Positions 167 through 29,802 of a stretch of 32,628 bases of DNA are shown here, in pieces. Source of the stretch: a virus. Numbering within the stretch: position 1 is the stretch's first letter; every line of letters starts with the position of its first letter. A program made the translations under genes and the position numbers. The notes under the pieces were generated by a model. That model ran no database searches, was not told where the DNA came from, and worked only from the letters and a program-made list of their open reading frames with translations. The stretch is from positions 1 through 32,628 of the IMG/VR virus record IMGVR_UViG_3300017963_000558; one strand, written 5' to 3'.

Positions 167-901
167 ATGACAAAGCAAGCAATTATCTACACCCGATTTT
201 CTCCGCGTCCAAACGCGCAAGAATGTAATAGTTGCGAGAAGCAAGCGGAGCGTTGTGTTACATATTGGAGGGCAAAGGGCTATGGGCCATGTACTGCAAT
301 TTACATGGATAAGGACGTATCCGGTGGGGAATTAAACAGGCCGAGGCTTAATGCCGCAATAGCAGCATTAAATCCTGGTGATGTTTTAATCGTGGACAGT
401 AGTGACCGTCTAGCGCGAGATATGTTGGTGAACCTGACTATCAGGTACCAAGTAGAACAAGCCGGCGCAACGATTGAATTTGCGGACGGCTCCCCACAAG
501 CCATAACACCGGAAGGCAAGCTATTTCAGAACATCCTTGCTGCCTTTGCTGCTTATGAACGCGACCGTATTCGCCTGAGAACAAAGAAGGGGCTGGAGAA
601 AAAGCGTAAGAACGGAGAGCGTACCACTGGCAAGATTCCGATTGGGTGGCAAGAAGACCCGGAAGACCCTAAACGACTTGTGGTATGCGAACAAGAGCGT
701 AAGGCAATTAAATTAGCGTGTGCAGCTAAAGCTGTTACGGGCACTACTTCTGATTTAATTGCTCAACAATTAGATAATGAACTTGGCCCTTGTCGTGGCA
801 ATCCCTGGAGTGCCCGCACAGTCCGCAAGCTAATCAAGCGCCATGCTTTCTGGGCCGACCCAGTGAATGGCGATTCTGCTCTTGAACCTCAGCACCCATG
901 A
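167..901 (+). CDS. Serine recombinase (resolvase/invertase family), 244 aa
   Basis: A site-specific recombinase that would cut and rejoin DNA through a phosphoserine link. The N-terminal catalytic domain (about residues 1-140) has YTRFS at 8-12, where Ser12 is the expected nucleophile and Arg10 its partner. The DSSDRLARD segment at 77-85 carries the conserved Arg pair (81 and 84), and the long linking helix begins near AAYERDRIRLRTKKG (129-142). A GKIPIGW segment at 155-161 and a short helical DNA-binding region follow. The protein ends there, so it lacks the long zinc-ribbon and coiled-coil tail of large serine integrases. An AAGGA ribosome site lies about 9 bases before ATG 167. Family assignment is firm. 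Whether it integrates the element, resolves multimers or inverts a segment cannot be told. The element also has a tyrosine integrase at 16361-17509. Confidence 0.9.
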   Translation: MTKQAIIYTRFSPRPNAQECNSCEKQAERCVTYWRAKGYGPCTAIYMDKDVSGGELNRPRLNAAIAALNPGDVLIVDSSDRLARDMLVNLTIRYQVEQAGATIEFADGSPQAITPEGKLFQNILAAFAAYERDRIRLRTKKGLEKKRKNGERTTGKIPIGWQEDPEDPKRLVVCEQERKAIKLACAAKAVTGTTSDLIAQQLDNELGPCRGNPWSARTVRKLIKRHAFWADPVNGDSALEPQHP

Positions 902-8235: not shown

Positions 8236-9840
8236 TTAATTCACTGGTTGATTATACCCCACAATCTCATAATACTTTCCTTTCCGCCGGACAGTAATTG
8301 TCTTTGTCCATTCAAGAATTTCTTGGGTAAGAAAAAGATTTTCAAGCGCTTCATTTGCAGTGACCTTCTTCTTCTGAACTCCAAATCGTTTGGCCCACCA
8401 ATCCTGAGCTATTTGACCGGCAATTCCCGGATGATCAAGGCACACCCATTCTCGGAACATAGAGAGCCCGCAACGATACTGCACGCGAATACTATCAGGC
8501 GAACCTTCTTTTTGGTGTCGATTAACATAGACAGCATCGACTTTATGTGTTTCCGGCTCACTTGAGAGAATGGATTTTCCAGATACTTGAGTACCATGTA
8601 ACCGCTTTTCTTTTTCGACTTGTTCAAGTCGTTCTATTTCTTGTTTAGGAATTTCCCAGCCGCATGCCGGGCATATCCTAATAGCTTTAGAAAACGACTC
8701 TCGACAAGTGGCACAAACTGCCATGACCGTTGGCGCTCCCCCAATGAGATCAATGGGCCCATGCTCTTCGATGCATCCGGCAAAATCGAGAACGAGGCAA
8801 TCGTTAATCGAGGGATGACAACGCAAGCCTCTTCCAACCATTTGTGAGTATAAACCGGCAGAGAGTGTAGGCCGTAATAGGACGATACAGTCGATGTGCT
8901 GCGCATTAAATCCCTCAGTGTAGACGTTCACATTACAAATAGCTCGGATATGACCAGCTTTGAAATCACGAACAATTCGATCACGTTCATGTTGTTTTGT
9001 TTTACTTGTGACATAAGGTGCATAAACACCATGTATGCGCAGTGCTTCCGATACTCGCTTACAATGTTCAATGTCCACACAAAAGAATATGATTGCCCGG
9101 CGTTTCTCGGCATTTATAATTCGCGTAGCCTCGCTAATGGCTTTATGAACAATATCACTTCGATCAACGGCCTTGGCCAGGCTTTTAATAACATAATCAC
9201 CGCCTGAATTTCGCTTGACTTCCTTTAGTTCCGGTTGCGTTTCGCCAACCTTTGAGCGCAGCTTACATAAATAACCAGCATCAATGAGATCAGTAACCTT
9301 TGCCTCATAGCATATCTCGTTAAGGATATGGTCTTTATGGCAAATTTGCCCGCCGGCCATACGATAAGGTGTTGCCGTCCAACCTATCACCTTCAGTTTC
9401 TTGCTGAACCTTCGGCTTTCGTTAATGAAGGTTCGATACTTTCCTTCGCCCTTAAATGGAATGCGGTGCGCCTCATCGACCATAATCACATCCCACGGCG
9501 TAAATTCCCCTGCACGCCTATAGACAGAATCAATGGAGGCATACAAGATATTGGCGTCGTAATCGCGCTGTTTTAGCGCAGCAGAAAAAACACCAATATC
9601 TCCATCGGGATAAAGTCTCCAAAGCTCCCCTGCGTTCTGTTCGATCAATTCCTTTCGATGTGCTAGAATAATGCAACGGAACCACGGTGCAGCTTCCTTC
9701 CATGCTTGAATGGTCCACGCAATCATCAATGACTTTCCGCTCCCGGTGGGCAGCACTACACACGGATTTGTTTCCTTTAGGCGAATATGCGCATCAAGCG
9801 CTTCAAGGGCTTCTTGCTGATAAAGGCGAGGAACTAACAT
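8236..9840 (-). CDS. Superfamily II DNA/RNA helicase with a C-terminal zinc ribbon, 534 aa
   Basis: Complete SF2 helicase set: Q-like RLYQQEAL (5-12), Walker A PTGSGKS (31-37), motif Ia LAHRKEL, DEAH box (122-125), motif III GWTATPYR (153-160), and in the second RecA fold TEGFN and QMVGRGLR (motif VI). A zinc ribbon CATCRES...CPACGWE follows, then a 130-residue tail. The layout resembles phage helicases of the UvsW/Ssl2-like group that remodel forks or recombination intermediates. ATG 9840 lies inside the end of the small gene at 9834-9977. It sits between the PD-(D/E)XK nuclease and the primase, which fits a replication/recombination role. The exact substrate is not visible from sequence. 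Confidence 0.9.
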   Translation of the reverse strand: MLVPRLYQQEALEALDAHIRLKETNPCVVLPTGSGKSLMIAWTIQAWKEAAPWFRCIILAHRKELIEQNAGELWRLYPDGDIGVFSAALKQRDYDANILYASIDSVYRRAGEFTPWDVIMVDEAHRIPFKGEGKYRTFINESRRFSKKLKVIGWTATPYRMAGGQICHKDHILNEICYEAKVTDLIDAGYLCKLRSKVGETQPELKEVKRNSGGDYVIKSLAKAVDRSDIVHKAISEATRIINAEKRRAIIFFCVDIEHCKRVSEALRIHGVYAPYVTSKTKQHERDRIVRDFKAGHIRAICNVNVYTEGFNAQHIDCIVLLRPTLSAGLYSQMVGRGLRCHPSINDCLVLDFAGCIEEHGPIDLIGGAPTVMAVCATCRESFSKAIRICPACGWEIPKQEIERLEQVEKEKRLHGTQVSGKSILSSEPETHKVDAVYVNRHQKEGSPDSIRVQYRCGLSMFREWVCLDHPGIAGQIAQDWWAKRFGVQKKKVTANEALENLFLTQEILEWTKTITVRRKGKYYEIVGYNQPVN

Positions 9841-16360: not shown

Positions 16361-17509
16361 TCAGCTTCCCCCCCCCAGGAGCCACCCACACACCACATTG
16401 GCAACTACTTGAAGCCTTGCTAGCTCGTGAAGATTAAGCTGCTTGTATACCCGCTTCTGGAGGCTCTTGCTTGTGTGCCCCATTGTCAGGTCGATCATGG
16501 CCTGATCGGGTACAAGGTCAACGACTGTGGCGTAGGTGTGGCGTAGGGAGCCAAGACTAACGCCCAACGACCGATTGCCGTCCAAGACGCGATTGAAGGT
16601 CAGGGAAAGCTCCCTCCCGCCCGGTGAATACCGGCGCCGAGATCGTGACAACAGCAAGCATCGCTCAGATGCACTGGCCGACTTGCGGTGGTCACGCTGG
16701 TAATCTTGGATAGCCTCGACTGTCTCGGGCCACAAGGCTGCCATACGGCGGCGCTTCGTCTTGACACGACGGAAATCATGGTACGGTATTTTGCCGTCCA
16801 AATGCAAATGATCTAGCGTGATTGCAACTGTATCGCTGGGATAGAAGCCGCAGTTGATCCCAAGCAAGATAGCGACCTTCAGCTTGGGTTTCGCAGCCGC
16901 CAGTGCAGTAAGAATAACGTCTCGGTCGAGGAAGCGACAGCTACCGTTCTCTTCTTGCTCGGCTTCAATGGCAGTGACGGAAGGCACAGCGAACCTAGGG
17001 CCGTAACGAATATCGCAATCGAATAGCTCCATCTTGCGGCCCCAATTGAAGACGGCCTTCGTGGCAATGATGAAGTTTCGTTGCGTGCGAAGGCTATATC
17101 TGTTATTCTCCAAGTGCCTTTCCATCACTGTGAAATGCTCAGGCTTCAGGGCCTTGACTGGCAAGCCGACCACCATGGATTGCTCAAAGAGCCTTCGCAC
17201 GGCGCGGTAGTCCCCTCGGGTTTTGCACGCAAGCTTGCCAGCCACGATTCGATCATCAACGTCGGCCAGATGCTTATCGAGCAATTCCCTCACAGTAATA
17301 CTGTGCTCGTGAGTGGGCGGAATCTCACCCGCCAGTAGATAGTCCTTTTCGCGCAGCCAAAGCCGAAGCGCCGCGTCTCGGTCTTTCAACGGGCCGAAGT
17401 AATAGACCTTCCCGCGAACCTTCTTGCTCCAGTACCCCCTTGGATGGACAGTGAGCGGGAAGTCGGGGTGCGCTCGCTTCCAGAGGCGATGCTTCTGTAG
17501 GTCAAACAT
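16361..17509 (-). CDS. int: Tyrosine integrase of planctomycete type, 382 aa
   Basis: Recombines phage and host attachment sites. The N-terminal arm domain has YWSKKVRGKVYYFG (26-39), and the core SAM-like domain spans roughly 70-170. The catalytic domain has GINCGFYPSD (217-226), Lys250, GSLRHTYATV (320-329) with Arg323, MGHTSKS (343-349) with His345, and Tyr355 in VYKQ as nucleophile. The place where most integrases have the first catalytic Arg (TGLR-x-x-E) reads INCGFYPSD, and the HxxR His is Gly320. From memory, both changes are shared with integrases common in Gemmata-like Planctomycetes and need not mean loss of activity. A run of nine G lies just before the stop. ATG 17509 is chosen; the region upstream (17510-17854) is gene-free. 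Confidence 0.88.
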   Translation of the reverse strand: MFDLQKHRLWKRAHPDFPLTVHPRGYWSKKVRGKVYYFGPLKDRDAALRLWLREKDYLLAGEIPPTHEHSITVRELLDKHLADVDDRIVAGKLACKTRGDYRAVRRLFEQSMVVGLPVKALKPEHFTVMERHLENNRYSLRTQRNFIIATKAVFNWGRKMELFDCDIRYGPRFAVPSVTAIEAEQEENGSCRFLDRDVILTALAAAKPKLKVAILLGINCGFYPSDTVAITLDHLHLDGKIPYHDFRRVKTKRRRMAALWPETVEAIQDYQRDHRKSASASERCLLLSRSRRRYSPGGRELSLTFNRVLDGNRSLGVSLGSLRHTYATVVDLVPDQAMIDLTMGHTSKSLQKRVYKQLNLHELARLQVVANVVCGWLLGGGS

Positions 17510-18129: not shown

Positions 18130-18151
18130 AAGGCCGTACAGAAGCGGCCTT
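18130..18151. terminator. Bidirectional terminator hairpin between convergent genes
   Basis: AAGGCCG (18130-18136) and CGGCCTT (18145-18151) form a perfect 7-bp stem with an 8-base loop, two bases after the zinc-ribbon stop. On the minus strand a T-rich tail (TCTTATT) follows, so it suits ending the late operon better than the plus-strand gene. Confidence 0.7.
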
Positions 18152-18173: not shown

Positions 18174-18410
18174 TTAGTCTACTTGGTCGTTATCTCGCCT
18201 TGCAAGATACGCCAAGAAGGCGTCCCTTTGGTCCTTTAGGGCTGCTGTGTGGGCTGGAAAAGTGCGCGTAAGCATCCACCATACCGTCCAGGCTAAGACC
18301 AGTAAGGCGCCTCCCTGAAGTATCTCGGATGCCAATGGCATCCCGACTGGCATATCAGCCGCGAAGATCATTGAAACTACAGCAATTAGTCCATAAGCTG
18401 GCACGCGCAT
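18174..18410 (-). CDS. Small membrane protein, possible holin or lysis accessory, 78 aa
   Basis: Two hydrophobic stretches, VPAYGLIAVVSMIFAAD (3-19) and ILQGGALLVLAWTVWWML (30-47), are followed by a polar helical tail (KDQRDAFLAYLARRDND). Small two-segment proteins with such tails are common next to phage lysis genes as holins, antiholins or spanin-like helpers. It is coupled to the protease-thioredoxin gene by TAATG and is the last gene of the late operon before the terminator. A lysis role is inferred from context. Confidence 0.6.
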   Translation of the reverse strand: MRVPAYGLIAVVSMIFAADMPVGMPLASEILQGGALLVLAWTVWWMLTRTFPAHTAALKDQRDAFLAYLARRDNDQVD

Positions 18411-19387
18411 TATTTAGGCCCTTCTGCGCTATAGAATTCCAATAGCTCCTGAACACTTTTCACGCCAGACATCACTTCGCCACGTTGATTCACATAAGCC
18501 GGCAGGGCATTGATTCCATATAGCTCTGCAAACGCAACATTGAGGTCATAATCAATCACCTGTATATCTGAGCACGAAGTCCTAAGCTCCTCAATAACAG
18601 GTTTCATCTGTTGACAATATTTGCACCAATCAGCAGAAAACATCAAATTCCCCGTTAGGCTTAAACTTCCAAGGTCAGTAGAATTAACAGCGTAACCATT
18701 CTTTTCAGTTGCACCCCAAAGCACCCCAACAATTTTTCCATCCTGGAAAATTGCCGAGCCACTTCGTCCGCCCTTCGGCGGTGGGACAAACATGAAGCTC
18801 TGTTTGGGCTTTTCGTTCATTTTAGTTACATGCCCTTCAAAAAGTGATTGCCAACTCAATCCGGGGCAGCCAACAGACATGATGGGATTATTTGGGTTTG
18901 GTCCATCAGGAGAAATTGGAATAGCCACTGGTAACTCACCTTCCTTAAAACTTTCGACAGGAATTACAATTACAGCAGCATCGACACTGAGAATCTTAGA
19001 AACCTTTCCAGTGTATTCGCCGGTGATCCTCCCATCAATCCAAAACTCAGCGATAAATGCCTTCGTTCCCTCGACAACATGCCGGCAAGTAAGAACATAC
19101 ACATACTGATCGTCAATTCTGAAACACGCACCAGAGCCGCCCGAACCGCCACCACGTATACGACAAGCGGAATGCAGATATTTATCTAAATCTACTTTCT
19201 CTGGATTAACAACAGATCGCTGGACGAAAGGAAGCGAAGGTGGAGCAATTTCGATTTGTGGAAATAATTCCTCTGTAACTTCATCTTGTGAATGAGAATA
19301 AATTACAGGAACTAGAAAAGGTAATGCGCAAAACGTCACTACCACAAGCCAACTAATTACGTAAATTATAAACGGTGTTTTCTTCAT
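18410..19387 (-). CDS. Membrane-anchored trypsin-like protease fused to a thioredoxin domain, 325 aa
   Basis: A signal anchor (FIIYVISWLVVVTFCALPFLVPVI, 6-29) is followed by a trypsin/HtrA-like domain. It has His103 in TCRHVVE, Asp136 in SVDAAVIV and Ser209 in GGRSGSAIF, which is a complete catalytic triad. From about 245 a thioredoxin-fold domain follows, with WCKYC (Cys255, Cys258) and a later cis-Pro segment INALPAYV. Both domains would face the periplasm. ATG 19387 (MKKTPF) is chosen for its AAAGG site 8 bases upstream. It sits between a holin-like gene and a small membrane gene, where an endolysin would be expected. Possible roles are cutting or maturing envelope proteins during lysis, or protecting and folding virion proteins. 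No phage precedent for this exact fusion is known to me. Confidence 0.85.
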   Translation of the reverse strand: MKKTPFIIYVISWLVVVTFCALPFLVPVIYSHSQDEVTEELFPQIEIAPPSLPFVQRSVVNPEKVDLDKYLHSACRIRGGGSGGSGACFRIDDQYVYVLTCRHVVEGTKAFIAEFWIDGRITGEYTGKVSKILSVDAAVIVIPVESFKEGELPVAIPISPDGPNPNNPIMSVGCPGLSWQSLFEGHVTKMNEKPKQSFMFVPPPKGGRSGSAIFQDGKIVGVLWGATEKNGYAVNSTDLGSLSLTGNLMFSADWCKYCQQMKPVIEELRTSCSDIQVIDYDLNVAFAELYGINALPAYVNQRGEVMSGVKSVQELLEFYSAEGPK

Positions 19388-19400
19388 GGGCATTGCCTTT

Positions 19401-19646
19401 CTACTTGACCGACGTAATAGGTTCCTTGCTGATAGTGCGCAAAAGCACATTCACAATAGCCAGTCCAGCCGCAAGCCAAGGCGCAATAGGTGTCGGCAGG
19501 AATGAAACGCTACCAGCCGCACTTAGCACAGTCGCAAGCCCACCCAGCGTGTTCACCCAAAATGTCTTGGACCGCAGAAGTCCCTTGCCCAACACGGGCT
19601 TCCCTTCAGCAATTCTCTCGTTACGAATGTCTCGCAAAATTCCCAT
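19401..19646 (-). CDS. Holin-like small membrane protein, 81 aa
   Basis: ATG 19646 is chosen over an in-frame start six codons upstream because GAGGAGA precedes it. A basic N-terminus (MGILRDIRNERIAEGKPVLGKGLLRSK) leads into two hydrophobic segments, FWVNTLGGLATVLSAAGSVS and WLAAGLAIVNVLLRTIS, and a short end (KEPITSVK). The 'SKTFWVN-LGG...A-VN-LLR--SKEPI' pattern resembles small phage holins that set the time of lysis by opening the inner membrane. The adjacent genes are the protease-thioredoxin gene downstream and the ejection protein upstream. Confidence 0.7.
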   Translation of the reverse strand: MGILRDIRNERIAEGKPVLGKGLLRSKTFWVNTLGGLATVLSAAGSVSFLPTPIAPWLAAGLAIVNVLLRTISKEPITSVK

Positions 19647-19729: not shown

Positions 19730-22700
19730 CTACTTCTTGGGGGCACGTACTGATTGCATTGTAATCCTGTTTTCTCGGTTTTCACGATTCCAATTTCCGA
19801 CAAGTCTCGTTGCTTTAGCGCGCTCCCCTCTCCGCCAGAGCTTCTGCGCTTCTTTCCGTGTTGCCGTTTCAGTGTCTTTATAAGCACTTACGCCAACACC
19901 AAGAGCCGCCAAGCCACCGGCGGCAACTCCAGCCACAGCACCCTCTTCCTTCCATGCTTCGGCAGTATCTTCAAGCACTAAGGGCACAACGGAACGTCCT
20001 AATGTTTCAAGTCTTGTAGTCTTTTCACCAACTGCCGTTTCTCCGGCCACCAATTCAATAGGAATAGTTACAGCCGGCGATAGCTTAAATGCAGCAAATC
20101 GTCCAATAATTTCCAGCGGATCAAAATCCTTAATGAATGCCCCAGTAGCTAATTTGGTTATCAGCCGCATTGGCTGCTGGAAGCCGCCCCAAATATCAAC
20201 GCGCATATTGCCAGATCGAATCTTTCCCCAGTCGGGGTCTTCTGGGTCTAGGAATTCAACATCGGCACCAGCCAGATAAGCCAAGAACAACACCATCATT
20301 CCAGTAGACGCCGTTTTGGCCATATCTTTTGCAATCTGGTTGCGAACACGAGGCACTTTCCAATATCGCACAATTGTCCAGGGTGTTTCTATCCGACTTA
20401 CAGCGAACTTAGGTGAAAAGAATGCAACCTGCAAGTAATCACTAACGGCACCAAACCGCCCAAGGTGCCCTAGTCCGGTTGACACATTAACATAATCAGC
20501 AAATGCTCGCATTTCTTCCTGTGTAGTATAGGGATGGTTTGCAATAAATTGATCGAAAGCGCTTGCGCGCATAAGATTACTGAATGCAGTTGCATGGCGA
20601 CTCGATGCACTCATTAGCCATCCAAATGGATTCTGCTTACCGAAGATTTTCATTCTTTCAACAAAACGTGCCCTGAAAATTTCCGACCTTTGCCTGGCGT
20701 CTAGCGAGCCAGCATCCATAATGACCAACCCAGATTGCTCATATAGAACGGCATTTTGTGAATTCAATATTATGTTGTTAATTTCAAATGCACTATGTTC
20801 AGAAAAGAAAGCTTGCAGCGAAGGGCCAAATGCCTGCATTGCTTTTATTGGATGATTGACTACTTGAACAAAACACTGGCGCATTGTAAATGAAACATCT
20901 GCCGTAGCTTTTACTGACTTAGCACTGAATACGAATTCTTTCAATACCTTCCCAGTTGTCCACGGGGCAGTATCTTCAATGGCCTGTAAAATTTCCTGAC
21001 GTTTCTTTGCAATTTCTATTTGCTTGCGCTCTAACTGACGATTTACAAGCTTCCTAACTTGCCTCCGTGGAGGAAGATATTCACCAGTCCGCAATTGTTC
21101 ATTTAATTTGGCAAGCTCTTCGTCAGCCCGTATCTCCATACTGACTTGCCTGATTTGGTCTTGAATGTCGGCAAGTTCAGGGGGAATTTCTCTTGGTGCT
21201 CTTTTAAGCTTCGTTCTGCCATTTACAAGCTGATCCTGGAGAATATTCAGTCGCTCAATAGCCCTGACCACCTTGGCTTCGTCCATTTCTGTTTTGTAAT
21301 ATTCCATTCTGAGTTTAGTAAGCTTTTTTCCTAGCGCTTTAATTTCAGGATCAACAGGTTGTCGTTTCTGAGTTTTCTCGGCAACTCCTTGTGCCATTTG
21401 GTCTATTTCAACATGCATCCTGGCAAGCGACTGGAACTTAGCGACTTGTTTTTGCGCATGAGAACGTGCCTGCGCTTTTGCCTTTGGGTTACGAGAGATT
21501 AGAGCCTGATATACATCGTGGTCACTGAGATTCAAGTCTGGTAAGTCCTGGCGTAAATTTTCAATAACTTCAACAAGCGAGCCAGTGCCCTTCTTGATAT
21601 AAGCAATGCCCAGCCGTCCAATAAGGTAAGTCCCCTCGGCAGTTACCCCCGTAATGTCATTCACACGAAGGCCTATTTGCCGAATCTGATCCTTAATGTC
21701 TGCTATTTCCTTATCTGCCTTTTCGCGGATTTTGCGACCAATTTCCTTCCTTGGCTTGTAAGCATTAAGAACTTTTTCGGCAAGCGCTTTGTCTCGCGCC
21801 TCGTCGGCAATACGTTCTGCCTCTTCTAATTGCTCCCTGACCTTTACCAATTCAGCATGTTCCTTCGCAAGACGCGCAGCCAACTTGCGTTCAGTTTGTG
21901 TAAGTTCCCCCCCCTTCGGCCCCTTGGCGGCCTGCATTCGATTAAGTATCTTAACGATACTAAAATCTTCTCTATTCATTCGTAAGCGACCAAATCCAAG
22001 AGCCCGTGCCGTTTCACGCCTTGAGTACCTAGCCGCTGTTGTAATCATATCAAGATGATCTATAATGCCAGGTGTTTTGTGTATACCTTCAGCCCCTACA
22101 GTCCATGCGCCTTCAATGCGGGCCGTGGCTTTGTCAAATGCTTCTTGATTCTCTGCCGCAGCAGCCTTTGCTTGTTCTTCCCATGCAGCATCTAGTTCAT
22201 TTAACAACTTACCTTCTTTTAGCAATAATGCTGCACTTTCATGTGTGGTAAGCATCTTTCCAGTTTTAAGTGCTTCCTGGGCTATTTCCATTGCCCGTTC
22301 ATCCCCCCTGCTGGTGGCAACTTCATCCATGACAATATCTCTGTGCTGGACTTCCTCTTCAGTCAATTCCGGCCGATGAATATATTGGCGTATCTTATCA
22401 GTTTCAACTTTATTAAGAGCAATTACCTTTTCGTTAGCTTCTACTTCCTCCACAGGCACTCCAGGAGCTTCCTGAGCGGCTTCTGGCGCCAATGGTGTTT
22501 CTACCGGCCCAGGAGCTAAATCTTCCTGTACAGCCGCCGTAGGCTCCGCAACGGGCGTCTCCGGGGCTTGTTCCGGGGCTGGCCCCGCCTCTGCCTCTAA
22601 GCGGGCCTGTTCTCTGGCACGAAGATCGGCCGCAATGGCCTGAACGGCTTCTTGCCTCACTTTACTTGGGGGTATCGTTCCATCCTTTTTGGCAGGTAGC

Positions 22701-23692
22701 TTCCATTGCTTCCACTGTTTCCGAGAAGGTGTCTCATTGGCATCTGCTGCTGCTATAATCTCATTCGCAATTGCCACTTCACGCCCTGCCTTAACGGAAC
22801 GGACAAGATCAGGAGCACTACCAATGCCGGCAGCAATGAGAGTTTGGACTGTGGTTTCAGCTACAGTTTGCCGCAAACTTTCTGGACTTAAAGCATCAGA
22901 ATCGACTTCTGCGACCGCCGCAGCAACATTATGTCCTATTTCAGTTACCAACTCTTCTGGTAACTCTTGGCCTACTGTAATTCCCAGCTTCTTTAGGCCC
23001 TCTTTCAATCCAACCGCAACAATAGACTTTTTGCCGGCCACTGCACTTTCCACGCCTCCAAGTCCCAATCGCTGCATAACGGTAGCCGGCAAGCCTTCAA
23101 TTACACCTTGCGTCACTGCATAGCCAGCCAGGTCGCCACCTTTTAGGCCAGCGTCCCTGCCGGTAGTAATTGCACGGTTTGTCTCTTGTCCAGCAGCAGT
23201 GCCAATGGCAGCGTATGGCCCACCAACCATGCCAGCGGCATACATTGTCGTCAAGGATCGTCCAGCGCCGCGAAGGCCGCTTTGAAGAATGTCAGGAACA
23301 ATACCGCCTTTTTCCTTTTGGCGTTGAACTTGTTCTACTGCTTCTGCGAAACGATTCATTCGGTCGGCATATTCTCCCTTGCCAAAAAGTCTTGCAATAG
23401 GAGAAACAATGTCCGCCCCGGTCTCAATGGCATACGCCTTAACACTAGGAAGAATGGATTCACCAAGTTCCTTGGTCGCTTGGGCCATTGTAGCTTCTTG
23501 CTCGTATTTCCGCCATGATTCTTCCTGTTCCCAAGCAGGCATCATTCTGGATGGAGCTTCCTTTTTTTCCGGCTGAAATCTTTCAGCAAAAGCAAGCACT
23601 TTTTCATCAAGTCCACCAGACTGCCCATTAAGCATGGCAGTATCAGTACCAAGTCGTAAAGTAAAATCAAGTATATCCGTGCTCAGCGGCAT
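19730..23692 (-). CDS. Large polyvalent/internal virion (ejection) protein, 1320 aa
   Basis: By far the largest gene here. About residues 90-330 are Gly/Ala-rich helices with membrane-like character (SLTTMYAAGMVGGPYAAIGTAA). Residues 365-420 are a Pro/Ala/Glu linker, 450-900 are long charged coiled coils (KLAARLAKEHAELVKVREQLEEAERIADEAR), and 920-1250 form a compact domain with SGNMRVDIWGGFQQPMRLI and LSPAVTIPIELVAGE, resembling large polyvalent protein domain LPD38. Such proteins are packaged in heads of T7- or N4-like phages and pushed into the host to form a DNA channel. No transglycosylase motif is evident to me. Coupled by TAATG to 23692-24753. Start ATG 23692. Confidence 0.7.
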   Translation of the reverse strand: MPLSTDILDFTLRLGTDTAMLNGQSGGLDEKVLAFAERFQPEKKEAPSRMMPAWEQEESWRKYEQEATMAQATKELGESILPSVKAYAIETGADIVSPIARLFGKGEYADRMNRFAEAVEQVQRQKEKGGIVPDILQSGLRGAGRSLTTMYAAGMVGGPYAAIGTAAGQETNRAITTGRDAGLKGGDLAGYAVTQGVIEGLPATVMQRLGLGGVESAVAGKKSIVAVGLKEGLKKLGITVGQELPEELVTEIGHNVAAAVAEVDSDALSPESLRQTVAETTVQTLIAAGIGSAPDLVRSVKAGREVAIANEIIAAADANETPSRKQWKQWKLPAKKDGTIPPSKVRQEAVQAIAADLRAREQARLEAEAGPAPEQAPETPVAEPTAAVQEDLAPGPVETPLAPEAAQEAPGVPVEEVEANEKVIALNKVETDKIRQYIHRPELTEEEVQHRDIVMDEVATSRGDERAMEIAQEALKTGKMLTTHESAALLLKEGKLLNELDAAWEEQAKAAAAENQEAFDKATARIEGAWTVGAEGIHKTPGIIDHLDMITTAARYSRRETARALGFGRLRMNREDFSIVKILNRMQAAKGPKGGELTQTERKLAARLAKEHAELVKVREQLEEAERIADEARDKALAEKVLNAYKPRKEIGRKIREKADKEIADIKDQIRQIGLRVNDITGVTAEGTYLIGRLGIAYIKKGTGSLVEVIENLRQDLPDLNLSDHDVYQALISRNPKAKAQARSHAQKQVAKFQSLARMHVEIDQMAQGVAEKTQKRQPVDPEIKALGKKLTKLRMEYYKTEMDEAKVVRAIERLNILQDQLVNGRTKLKRAPREIPPELADIQDQIRQVSMEIRADEELAKLNEQLRTGEYLPPRRQVRKLVNRQLERKQIEIAKKRQEILQAIEDTAPWTTGKVLKEFVFSAKSVKATADVSFTMRQCFVQVVNHPIKAMQAFGPSLQAFFSEHSAFEINNIILNSQNAVLYEQSGLVIMDAGSLDARQRSEIFRARFVERMKIFGKQNPFGWLMSASSRHATAFSNLMRASAFDQFIANHPYTTQEEMRAFADYVNVSTGLGHLGRFGAVSDYLQVAFFSPKFAVSRIETPWTIVRYWKVPRVRNQIAKDMAKTASTGMMVLFLAYLAGADVEFLDPEDPDWGKIRSGNMRVDIWGGFQQPMRLITKLATGAFIKDFDPLEIIGRFAAFKLSPAVTIPIELVAGETAVGEKTTRLETLGRSVVPLVLEDTAEAWKEEGAVAGVAAGGLAALGVGVSAYKDTETATRKEAQKLWRRGERAKATRLVGNWNRENRENRITMQSVRAPKK

Positions 23693-25789: not shown

Positions 25790-26956
25790 TTATGGATTAA
25801 CTACTGTTACTTCTCGTGTTGCACCGTCAATTGTTAGCCATTCAACTTTAGGAACCCAATCTAAATTCCCTTCTCGACATTCAACTGTTACTTGTTTTGT
25901 CCATGTATTTTCTAACATACCATTTGAATCATACATTTTAAGAGAAAAATCCAAGATTACATCACCACCGCTCCAGTTTAAGTAAACTGAATACTGTACT
26001 GAATATGTCAAAGGCTCCCAAGGGAGAACCCAATAAGGCTTAAAACGAACGGCTTTAATTACTATTTGGTTTCCGTTACATTCACCAATTAACCAATCCT
26101 TGGGATATGGAACCCCATTTTCATCCACCATATCATAATATGGCGCTAAAGCTTGTCCGTCAGCAGTAGGGGTCCTAATTTCAAATTCATCTGAACTTTC
26201 TGGACTTGCACCATGGGCAAAATACCACTTAGGATCATCAGGATACCAACCAGGTGGTATATCACTATCACGATTATTCCAAAAATAATGGTAAACTCTT
26301 GCATAAGGTGTCGTATGAAGCTCAATACTATTACCAAAATGTAATGATGCTCCAAAAATATTTTCGAGCTTAGCTTGTTCAGGATCGTCATTTCTATGCA
26401 ATGGACCACGTCCCTGAAAACCAGTCATTGTAAGTGTCAATATCGCGTATGGTTCTCCCGCTTCTATTACAACTTCAATTTCTACATAAGCTTCTTCTGC
26501 AATTTCAAATACAGTAAAAGGCTTACTTTGTGCAGTTAAAATAACTACTCTACCTACATCATCAGCAGATACATCAAAAAGAAAAGTTGGCTCAGAACCC
26601 CAATAAGTTTCCCCTTCTGAATAATTTTGAGTTACAGTATCTTGGTAATTTGCATCCTCACTAAGTTTCAACTGAACACGAGCTTTTGTATCTGACCATT
26701 TAGCAGTCCAAAAGATTTGCCCATCTGGCTGCCCGGTTACAAAAGTATCATGGTCTATAAGATTAAGAGTAATGTTTCCAACTTCCATTCCCGGAACCAT
26801 TATAGCAGGTGCCGTAAGGTCCAAAGCATAAATAGGTATATACCCCGGCGGGCATGGCCCCGGAAATATCCAGTTCACGTTCCAACCTGCGGGCACATCC
26901 ACACCTTCAACCAGTGCGGCCGAAACAGCAGGTTTAGCAACGTAAGCACCACTCAT
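25790..26956 (-). CDS. Virion-like protein of unknown function, 388 aa
   Basis: ATG 26956 overlaps the tail fibre stop as TAATG and is preferred over an upstream in-frame start. The product is beta-rich, with many Trp and Tyr (YWGSEPTFLFDVSADDVG, WNNRDSDIPPGWYPDDPKWYF, YSVQYSVYLNWSGGDVIL), no hydrophobic membrane segment and few Cys. It lies directly after the tail fibre in the operon, so a tail-tip, fibre accessory or chaperone function is plausible. The start GWNVNWIFPGPCPPGYIPIYAL is Pro/Gly-rich. I do not recognise a fold; a cell-surface binding protein is one possibility. Confidence 0.55.
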   Translation of the reverse strand: MSGAYVAKPAVSAALVEGVDVPAGWNVNWIFPGPCPPGYIPIYALDLTAPAIMVPGMEVGNITLNLIDHDTFVTGQPDGQIFWTAKWSDTKARVQLKLSEDANYQDTVTQNYSEGETYWGSEPTFLFDVSADDVGRVVILTAQSKPFTVFEIAEEAYVEIEVVIEAGEPYAILTLTMTGFQGRGPLHRNDDPEQAKLENIFGASLHFGNSIELHTTPYARVYHYFWNNRDSDIPPGWYPDDPKWYFAHGASPESSDEFEIRTPTADGQALAPYYDMVDENGVPYPKDWLIGECNGNQIVIKAVRFKPYWVLPWEPLTYSVQYSVYLNWSGGDVILDFSLKMYDSNGMLENTWTKQVTVECREGNLDWVPKVEWLTIDGATREVTVVNP

Positions 26957-29802
26957 TAGATAAACCACCCTGATATTTGTATATCAATTTGATCGGCACC
27001 ATTTGACCAATACTCTATTTTTCTATTTGAATCAACAAGTACAATCGAAGCCAAGTTTGACCATGTATTTGCCGCTTGCACGTTACATTGCATAATACTA
27101 GCCGAATCACCTTTTTGTCTTATATATATTGATTTGTCAACAGTAGAATTATAAATTCTAACTCTAACTACGGCAGCATAAGAACCAACCGGAACAATAC
27201 TACTTAAGTCAAGATCACGAAAAGTGCTATCGTGTATTAAATCACCTTCATCAAAATCCCATGGAGGGTCAGACCTCCCAACATATCCAGCATTATTTGT
27301 GAGTGTCGTTCCTGAAATTCCAGCAGCAGTACCAGCCAATGTCAACCACTTACAAGCTGTTTCTCCATCATCCCAGAAGAGAATACGATCCTCTCCCGGA
27401 TCAGTCAGAGCTTCGATTCCTAAATGAGAAAGTGCAAGCGTAACGTAATCCCCACCATCTGTGTAACTAAGCCCCGTACTGGATCGCAGAACACCGTCAT
27501 TTGAAGCTGCACCCAAGTAGCCAGGCGTTGCGCCGGCGTCTATTCCCACGTATTTATCTGCGCCGGCCGCAAGTGCAGTCTCAAACTCAGAGAATGTAAT
27601 CTTTCGATTAGCTTCCGCTGTGGCATCATAAAATGCCAGTGTATCAGCGGCAGCAATTGCAGCTTCGCCAGTCAGGCCGTTAATATCCAGGGAAAGAGTT
27701 CTGGTTGAATTAATGGTCCCTCCGCCCGTTAAGCCGCTTCCAGCCGTGATTGAAACGCCAGTATGGTCTACATGCTTATTGGCATCGTAATTAGTAATTG
27801 CATTATGATCTATGTCAGTGGTTAAATTATGAGTATTAGTGATAGAGGCATGGTCAATGTCCGTCGTTAAATTGTGAGTATTAGTAATAGAAGCATGGTC
27901 AACATCTGTCGTTAAGTTGTGGGTATTTGTAATAGAATCATGGTCAATGTCTGTAGTTAAGTTGTGCGTGTTCGTTGTGGCATCGTGGTCCACATCAGCA
28001 TCGTTAATCATGGACGCATCAATATGCCCTTCGGCATCTAGTATAATTGGCTTACCAGCATCAGCAGCGCCAGCACTTGTGTCAATAAAGTCACCTATTG
28101 GTAGATAACGAAAATCTCCGGGGCCAGATTCATCAAGCGTAGCAGACCTAAGAATCTTTCCGCTACTTGTTCCGCCAGCAAGTGCAATACCATCACCAAT
28201 ATCTGCTACTGATTCAACATAATTAGCCATAATCCCAAGACTTATCCAAGTGGCGCCCCAATCAGTTGACCGAAGAATAAGCCCAGAATTCGACGTGCCT
28301 GCTATAAGTATTCCACCGCCAAGACTGGCAACACAGTTTATACTTACCTGGCTAGCTTGCTGTCCAAGATCAGTCCATGTTACGCCATAATCAATTGATC
28401 TAATGATTTTTCCACCAGAATATCCACCAGCTAACACAATACCATTTCCAGCATATGCTATTCCATAAATACGTGTCATGCTTCCTTGCTGCCCAAGATC
28501 ATCCCATGTTGCGCCATAGTCAGTTGACCTGAGAATCTTTCCATATTCCGCAGTACCAGCCAAGACAATTCCATTTCCAATATTGCAAAGTGAATAGATT
28601 ATTGATTGACTATATTGAGGGCCTAAAAGTGACCATGTAGCGCCATAATCTGTAGATCGCCAGATACGTGCTCCATTGCCGCCTGCAACCACAATTCCCC
28701 CACCAACATAACATAATGCGTATATAGTAGATGCGTCCGTTAATACACCAAGATCAGTCCATGTTACTCCATGGTTAGTTGTGCGCAAAATTTTTCCATT
28801 ATTTGTACCAACAACAGCAACTCCACTTCCAATATTACATGCAGAACAAAGATATGTTGCCGATCCTTGCTGCCCAAGATCATCCCATGTTGCGCCATAG
28901 TCAGTTGAGCGTAAGATTTTTCCACCAGACCCAGTAGCAGCAATAACTATTCCATTACCTAATGAACACATATCCTGAATAGTATAGCAGCTATGTTGTG
29001 TGCCTAAATCAGTCCATACCAATCCAGCATCGCCACCTACACCACCGCCAGGATCGCCAGCGCCACCACCCCCACCACCACTAGACACACCACTAGAAGT
29101 AGTCAAGAAATTTAAAAAAGTAAGTTTTTTATTTGTAGCAGTTTCAGTAATATCCCAAAATGGAATGAAATCACCAACTTCAATAGTGGCGCTATCTAAA
29201 CCGTTAATGTTAAGGTCAAAAGTCCTATTGGCCGAAATATCTCCACCGCCCGACAAACCACTTCCTGCTGTTAATGTCACGCCCGTATGGTCGATGTGCT
29301 TGTTGGCATCATAATTCGTCAATTGATTATGGTCTATATCAGTCGTTAAGTTATGTGCTCCCGTAATAGAAGCATGGTTAATGTCGGTCGTGAGATTATG
29401 AGTATTCGTTATTGCGTTATGGTTAATATCTGTCGTGAGGTTGTGTGTGTTTGTAGTGGAATTATGGTCAATGTCGGCATCGTTGAGCATCGTAGCATCA
29501 ACTTGTCCATCGGCGTCAAGTTTAATAGGCTTGTTCGCATCACCTGCGCCCGCAGACACACTAAGATGTTCTGATTCAGTGAAGTATCTGTTATCAAGTT
29601 GTCCTGCATCTAATTCTGTCTCCGTATAATATCGTGCATCCCCACGAGTATTGTTATGGTATTGCGTATGATCGTCATCGGTAAGCCCCTCTAAGTCGCC
29701 ATGGTCCCGCTCTTCTAATGTTTTCACATCCTTGTCCAATCGCTGGAAAGCCTGACGTACTTCAGTTCTGCTTTCGGGATGTGGAATTCGCCTATTTGCC
29801 AT
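26956..29802 (-). CDS. Tail fibre with repeat modules and a seven-bladed propeller, 948 aa
   Basis: The start is fibre-like (LTDDDHTQYHNNTRGDARYYTETEL near 40-64). Residues 110-170 and 602-680 each hold several 12-residue units of the form (I/T)TNTHNLTTDI(D/N)H. Each set is followed by a Leu/Ser-rich segment with SGL(S/T)GGG and a sequence ending INGL, so the whole block is duplicated. Between them, after a Gly-rich linker (240-260), residues 261-556 carry seven repeats with GKILRSTDYGATWDDLG, the sialidase/sortilin/Ycf48 signature, so they should fold as a seven-bladed beta propeller. The C-terminal 240 residues end with a beta domain (SIYIRQKGDSASIMQ and on). Host receptor binding is the likely role. 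His in each repeat could bind metal. Start ATG 29802, coupled as TAATG. Confidence 0.85.
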   Translation of the reverse strand: MANRRIPHPESRTEVRQAFQRLDKDVKTLEERDHGDLEGLTDDDHTQYHNNTRGDARYYTETELDAGQLDNRYFTESEHLSVSAGAGDANKPIKLDADGQVDATMLNDADIDHNSTTNTHNLTTDINHNAITNTHNLTTDINHASITGAHNLTTDIDHNQLTNYDANKHIDHTGVTLTAGSGLSGGGDISANRTFDLNINGLDSATIEVGDFIPFWDITETATNKKLTFLNFLTTSSGVSSGGGGGGAGDPGGGVGGDAGLVWTDLGTQHSCYTIQDMCSLGNGIVIAATGSGGKILRSTDYGATWDDLGQQGSATYLCSACNIGSGVAVVGTNNGKILRTTNHGVTWTDLGVLTDASTIYALCYVGGGIVVAGGNGARIWRSTDYGATWSLLGPQYSQSIIYSLCNIGNGIVLAGTAEYGKILRSTDYGATWDDLGQQGSMTRIYGIAYAGNGIVLAGGYSGGKIIRSIDYGVTWTDLGQQASQVSINCVASLGGGILIAGTSNSGLILRSTDWGATWISLGIMANYVESVADIGDGIALAGGTSSGKILRSATLDESGPGDFRYLPIGDFIDTSAGAADAGKPIILDAEGHIDASMINDADVDHDATTNTHNLTTDIDHDSITNTHNLTTDVDHASITNTHNLTTDIDHASITNTHNLTTDIDHNAITNYDANKHVDHTGVSITAGSGLTGGGTINSTRTLSLDINGLTGEAAIAAADTLAFYDATAEANRKITFSEFETALAAGADKYVGIDAGATPGYLGAASNDGVLRSSTGLSYTDGGDYVTLALSHLGIEALTDPGEDRILFWDDGETACKWLTLAGTAAGISGTTLTNNAGYVGRSDPPWDFDEGDLIHDSTFRDLDLSSIVPVGSYAAVVRVRIYNSTVDKSIYIRQKGDSASIMQCNVQAANTWSNLASIVLVDSNRKIEYWSNGADQIDIQISGWFI

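Follow-up and report, generated by a model that had tools for sequence, protein, structure and literature searches.

On the evidence of gene content and sequence, phages repeatedly carry a unit in which a peptidase is paired with a thioredoxin fold; the trypsin-like protease fused to thioredoxin that we describe here is its one-chain version. The fusion is encoded in the window, i.e., the whole stretch of DNA analyzed (32,628 nucleotides), a 32.6-kb IMG/VR virus record that is probably a fragment and in which neither a terminase nor a portal was seen. The original prediction holds as an observation once its strand is supplied, and its interpretation holds in part. The main new points with respect to it are the host phylum, a fusion of reverse domain order in host chromosomes, a phage peptidase-plus-thioredoxin cassette and a cysteine pair in the protease. 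The fusion may be a redox-gated envelope protease, for which we infer a use at lysis, a tentative reading that we hold at slightly less than an even chance.

An exported protease-thioredoxin fusion kept among phages

The fusion gene codes for 325 amino acids on the minus strand (19387..18410, ATG at 19387 and stop codon ending at 18410). The protein reported at 18410-19387 by the original prediction is real, but its strand had not been given; the plus strand of this interval is rich in stop codons. Alternative in-frame ATGs are located 5′ of the start at 19393 and 19450, and an AAAGG sequence just 5′ of the start fits the ATG at 19387. A frameshift or a chance open reading frame was ruled out, as the reading frame is kept in six other phage contigs.

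The catalytic triad and the WCKYC motif proved to be where they had been predicted, and both domains have Pfam matches above cut-off. Residues 1-30 (19298..19387, minus strand) form a signal peptide or signal anchor and contain the single strong hydrophobic segment of the protein (residues 7-25). The Trypsin_2 (chymotrypsin-fold) domain, delimited at residues 75-235 (18683..19165, minus strand) by Pfam, alignment and Foldseek on a weak model, matches the Pfam profile over residues 86-222 (E 8.8e-13; 49.6 bits against a curated cut-off of 27.6) and contains His103 (19081-19079), Asp136 (18982-18980) and Ser209 (18763-18761) in the order expected of the family. The short thioredoxin domain at residues 245-320 (18428..18655, minus strand) matches its own profile over residues 249-304 (E 2e-7; 31.4 bits against a curated cut-off of 23.5) and contains both the CxxC of WCKYC (Cys255, Cys258) and the cis-Pro (Pro296) of thioredoxins. 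No known muralytic or wall-peptidase domain was found in the protein using Pfam, so that it lacks the domain content of a phage endolysin. The AlphaFold2 model of the fusion, built from five sequences, was poor (pLDDT 51); the Foldseek comparison with the PDB that had been suggested earlier did point to DegS, DegP and MarP as the nearest folds of the protease, but has supporting value only on such a model.

The six other phage contigs that carry the fusion (L002/L003, which are two contigs, L004, L005, L009 and L219) encode homologues with about 50-58% identity to the window protein where measured. In all six, the fusion adjoins the same 78-residue-type small membrane gene and has the same neighbors as in the window. 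His103, Asp136, Ser209, the CxxC cysteines, Pro296 and four further cysteines of the protease domain are invariant among the aligned phage homologues; the latter are Cys101 (19087-19085), Cys174 (18868-18866) and the phage-specific Cys75 and Cys88. While the version in the window has a signal anchor, the homologues from L002, L004, L005, L009 and L219 begin with a lipobox (LPGC, FAGC, LMGC) and are predicted lipoproteins. By these sequence signals, the fusion is exported and tethered outside the cytoplasm.

No named phage carries the fusion according to tblastn against INPHARED, where the fusion, the integrase and a 797-residue structural protein returned matches to the thioredoxin domain only, or none. 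A search of plasmids with the fusion gave one weak thioredoxin match only, and the contigs of our genome collection scanned with it contained no relative. The Sak4-like ATPase and a relative's terminase led to distant named phages only. A Band_7/SPFH-like gene was also observed in the early region of relatives (L054:3238-3825, L055:3460-4029).

Gene neighborhood and the search for an endolysin

The minus-strand order around the fusion is a gene for a 1320-residue protein (19730..23692), a gene for an 81-residue membrane protein with its own GAGGAG ribosome-binding site (19401..19646), the fusion, a gene for a 78-residue membrane protein (18174..18410) whose start overlaps the fusion stop (TAATG at 18410) and, directly 3′ of the latter, a hairpin resembling an intrinsic terminator (18130..18151). 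L002, L007 and L005 have stronger hairpins at the corresponding position, with a GC-rich stem of 9-11 bp; in L002 and L007 the stem is followed by T's. The TAATG overlap and the terminator after the next gene indicate that the fusion, as last but one gene, closes a late operon set apart from the downstream tyrosine integrase (16361..17509, minus strand, domain profile), which we used to find relatives. Judging from this layout, the fusion gene would be expressed late, in a temperate Planctomycetota phage. Of the original interpretation, a phage gene, export and a late-operon position are supported.

We take the 1320-residue protein for an internal virion protein or an injection protein, and its L005 homologue carries LPD38. 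A HEIGH zinc-protease-like motif was seen in the large virion-like proteins of L002 (4872-9413), L004 and L009 (105-3572), and none in the window version. In L005, an extra secreted protein of 194 residues (9050-9634), absent from the window, is encoded after the small membrane gene and before the integrase. The window itself encodes a serine recombinase (Resolvase domain, 167-901, plus strand) besides the tyrosine integrase, and a tail-fiber-like protein (26956-29802, minus strand) in which units of the DHNSITNTHNLTTDIDH type recur alongside BNR repeats.

Both flanking small membrane genes, one of which had been called holin-like, do exist, but neither matched a known holin, endolysin or spanin family in family profile searches. 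The 81-residue protein, of which L219 has a close homologue at the equivalent position, is holin-like by position and size only, and the 78-residue membrane gene is kept in all fusion-carrying phage relatives and also in L014. Looking for the fusion beside holins in other phages, as had been proposed, recovers six contigs with the same neighbors, although these match no holin family; the operon layout and terminator fit late co-transcription.

The observation that no endolysin is visible holds for the window (Pfam) and for its complete 52-kb relative L005. The contig of L005 (52,362 bp) has an exact terminal overlap of 123 bp and a methyltransferase gene continuous across its ends, which together indicate a complete genome. 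Pfam revealed no lysozyme, amidase, glucosaminidase, M15/M23, CHAP or NlpC family among the predicted proteins of L005, and no lysis family is present among its PHROG matches listed (25 of 41 families); no recognizable endolysin was found at the Pfam level in the 53-kb relative of L009. An endolysin elsewhere in the full genome, which the original prediction had named as evidence against itself, is therefore not recognizable in a complete relative, and this result counts for a role in lysis. Alternatively, these phages may have an endolysin too divergent for recognition. With regard to spanins, the lipoprotein homologues of the fusion adjoin a small membrane protein, but no spanin-like sequence was identified; the hydrophobic segment at residues 7-25 of the window protein invites comparison with SAR (signal-arrest-release) endolysins, but the relatives have a lipobox.

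A variable slot and a peptidase-plus-thioredoxin cassette

The large virion-like protein is the fixed left neighbor of a variable slot that extends to the integrase. In relatives that have the same large protein and integrase and lack the fusion, other secreted enzymes fill this slot, namely a C92 permuted-papain amidase (Pfam), a papain-like lipoprotein and a membrane protein with a thioredoxin fold devoid of CxxC. The slots of L013 and L016 contain a CxxC thioredoxin in addition, and that of L023 a papain-like protein and a membrane thioredoxin. The lipoprotein family displays an invariant pattern of Gly-Ser-Cys, His and Asp/Asn (Asp-Asn), which provides a lead for its provisional labeling as papain-like or C39-like; the members tested had no Pfam, NCBIfam or PDB sequence match. 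The thioredoxin fold of the CxxC-less membrane partner is supported by a structure model and Foldseek. Designation of the 242-residue protein of the relatives as a thioredoxin failed from its sequence and was accepted only after the model and Foldseek, whereas the PHROG name "enoyl-CoA hydratase-like" for the C92 protein was judged a misnomer in view of Pfam C92.

A scan for the papain-like family yielded 130 viral loci, of which 80 were kept. Uncultivated viruses very commonly carry this lipoprotein family (L139-L218), whereas INPHARED phages lack it. Papain-like and thioredoxin-fold genes are at most 3 kb apart in 76 of the 80 loci, the thioredoxin-fold gene being mostly directly downstream, and in the four exceptions the contig ends 21-789 bp from the papain-like gene. 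No thioredoxin match was found more than 3 kb from a papain-like gene in 494 kb of flank. CxxC thioredoxins occur in 36 and C92 proteins in 39 of the 80 loci. C92, papain-like and thioredoxin-fold genes are absent from the sequence covered of fusion-bearing phages, and the phage trypsin type is absent from the papain-like loci. In L178 (5493-8581), a C92 amidase, a stand-alone secreted trypsin-like protein, a papain-like protein and a thioredoxin-fold membrane protein are encoded in one run, such that all parts of both cassette types meet in one phage.

The pairing in 76 of 80 loci, together with the shared slot between virion protein and integrase, argues that the window fusion is the one-chain form of this cassette. 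Both combine a peptidase with a thioredoxin fold; the cassette differs from the fusion by its separate genes, its cysteine peptidases and a thioredoxin-fold partner that often lacks CxxC. As far as we searched the literature, no description of a phage cassette made of C92, papain-like and thioredoxin-fold proteins was found.

The location of the cassette bears on its function. Lambda-type lysis genes often stand just before the terminase. In L143 and in the prophage of G401, a terminase-like gene directly follows the cassette, which counts for lysis; in L207 and L210, by contrast, the cassette lies among head genes, which counts against a lysis position. The latter arrangement, together with the place of the fusion directly downstream of a large internal virion-like protein, would fit a packaged or tail enzyme that opens the envelope during DNA injection; however, all phage homologues have a signal peptide or lipobox that would send them through the membrane and not into the virion, which makes an entry role highly improbable.

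The main rival of lysis is superinfection exclusion or lysogenic conversion, in which a tethered protease-thioredoxin made by the lysogen would act in the periplasm, where it would destroy or remodel a receptor or a protein of an incoming phage. This alternative draws on the temperate nature of the phage with an integrase beside the slot, on an exported or lipid-anchored product, on slot contents that differ between relatives as cargo genes do, and on a related secreted family in the host. We nevertheless consider it unlikely, given that the gene lies on the late-gene strand with tight spacing, a TAATG overlap and a terminator before the integrase, that L219 has kept the slot with no integrase found beside it, and that the pairing of peptidase and thioredoxin is kept across very different phages, which is less expected of cargo.

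Host phylum of the phage group

Since searches with the fusion and the integrase were poor, identification of the host relied on the profile of the 797-residue structural protein. Among 392 Planctomycetota genomes, this profile matched a single one (G393, E 1.6e-96), within a prophage whose terminase, portal and capsid are likewise related. In the G393 prophage, the gene for the large virion protein is followed by those for a papain-like protein and a thioredoxin-fold protein (31% and 29% identity to those of L013, respectively). The papain-like family was found in two more Planctomycetota genomes, adjoined in each by a thioredoxin-fold gene. Over the genome collection, the integrase profile matched only three Planctomycetota MAG contigs, with 28-33% identity. 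The presence of a related prophage in a Planctomycetota chromosome makes Planctomycetota a well-supported host phylum, by sequence relationship, for the phage group, and we infer the same phylum for the window itself. The Planctomycetota prophage mentioned above that has papain-like and thioredoxin-fold genes just before a terminase-like gene is located at about 7327000-7339000 of G401:C1 (L223).

Reverse-order fusions in Planctomycetota chromosomes share a cysteine pair with the phage protein

Full-length secreted proteins in which thioredoxin precedes trypsin are encoded by 40 of the 392 Planctomycetota genomes (about 10%, counted from the matches listed; e.g., L042, L046 and L050), whereas no match covering the two domains in the order of the phages was obtained in any of the 392. 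Both types are exported, combine the same two domains with a short thioredoxin starting at the CxxC strand, and share TCxH, GC and GRSG signatures including the same two cysteines. The host proteins differ by their order (thioredoxin, trypsin, then a long tail) and chromosomal location, their protease domains are only about 25-30% identical to those of the phages, and the two thioredoxins have 32% identity. The phage fusion thus belongs to the protease sub-type of the host family, with a Cys before the catalytic His and another in the GC motif, but does not have its domain order. A branch with 100/99 support separates phage and host thioredoxin-linked proteases from 29 ordinary host Trypsin_2 domains, in a tree for which the program warned of long branches.

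Two claims of the original prediction can be appraised in this light. Acquisition from the host is consistent with the grouping of the protease with planctomycetal thioredoxin-trypsin proteins, but not readily with their opposite order. A fusion common in host chromosomes and without a phage link had been named as evidence against the prediction; the domain pair is indeed common there, but the phage architecture was not found. An envelope quality-control or folding factor of HtrA or Dsb type, which would assist the infected cell or lysogen with phage membrane proteins as the chromosomal thioredoxin-trypsin would, could account for HtrA, DegS and MarP being the nearest folds and for the grouping with a protease family of about one tenth of Planctomycetota genomes. 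The location of the fusion at the end of a late operon argues against such a factor, and unrelated peptidases in the same slot of relatives fit cutting better than folding help; we regard it as quite improbable.

A Cys two residues before the catalytic His and a Cys in the GN motif are present in all 25 thioredoxin-linked proteases (6 phage, 19 host), whereas none of 53 other host trypsin-like proteases has Cys at either position. In the 29 top-scoring ordinary Trypsin_2 proteins among the latter (four genomes), the first position is occupied by Asn and the second by Asn, Ala or Ser; 24 further, lower-scoring ones likewise lack Cys at both positions. In either domain order, the presence of a thioredoxin is therefore accompanied by a dithiol beside the active site. 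Survival of the pair through a domain rearrangement suggests a working link between the thioredoxin and the protease, in which the thioredoxin would set the redox state of the protease via Cys101 and Cys174. Shared ancestry accounts for part of this association, and the pair may be inherited and not kept by function.

Discussion

The fusion resembles several known systems without coinciding with any of them. It shares with HtrA, DegS and MarP (Trypsin_2, PF13365) the fold, the triad order and a membrane-anchored periplasmic placement, but these have no thioredoxin domain and no phage operon, and at the TNxH and GN positions the host proteins tested have Asn instead of Cys. A disulfide related to activity, as we propose for the fusion, is known from MarP, a membrane serine protease of the periplasm (PMC4992679). 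The thioredoxin domain has the WCxxC and cis-Pro of thioredoxins (PF00085) and of periplasmic thioredoxin-like reductases, but it is short and follows a protease domain. Among SAR endolysins, P1 Lyz has been described as disulfide-controlled in works cited by PMC9025707; such enzymes likewise have an N-terminal anchor, a periplasm-facing enzyme and cysteine control, the last of these in our model only for the fusion, which differs by its protease fold, its own thioredoxin and the lipobox of its relatives.

A redox-gated protease acting at lysis could operate as follows. The protein would be exported and anchored to the inner membrane on its outer face, or to a membrane by lipid in the relatives, as its sequence indicates, and made late according to the gene layout. 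It would wait in the periplasm inactive or partly active, depending on the state of Cys101 and Cys174, until redox state or membrane integrity changes: once the inner membrane is opened by the small membrane proteins, cytoplasmic reductant would reach the thioredoxin, which would switch the protease. The protease would then cut envelope proteins or mature a host wall hydrolase, and the envelope would give way; the thioredoxin might also reduce disulfides of envelope substrates. Redox chemistry would not be universal in this group, as the thioredoxin-fold partner lacks CxxC in most cassettes. A trypsin-like fold is not expected to degrade peptidoglycan. Since peptidoglycan has now been shown in Planctomycetes (PMC4432640), the protease alone would be insufficient, and an unrecognized or host wall hydrolase would be needed. 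The envelope of Planctomyces has also been reported to be made of cysteine-rich protein stabilized by disulfides (PMC3035269). A bolder and rather doubtful proposal is that Planctomycetota phages carry an undescribed envelope-breaking system of peptidase and thioredoxin, whose one-chain form in the window would be a redox-switched protease with its own reductase that breaks a disulfide-stabilized wall protein instead of relying on a classical endolysin.

We found no description in the open-access literature of how phages escape from Planctomycetota. The conserved peptidase-plus-thioredoxin-fold cassette, present as one chain in the window, provides concrete candidate genes for this step. If the protease is redox-gated, it would represent a new way of timing an envelope enzyme, with a logic close to that of disulfide-controlled endolysins. 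If it does act on a disulfide-stabilized protein layer, this would bear on the long dispute over the planctomycetal wall.
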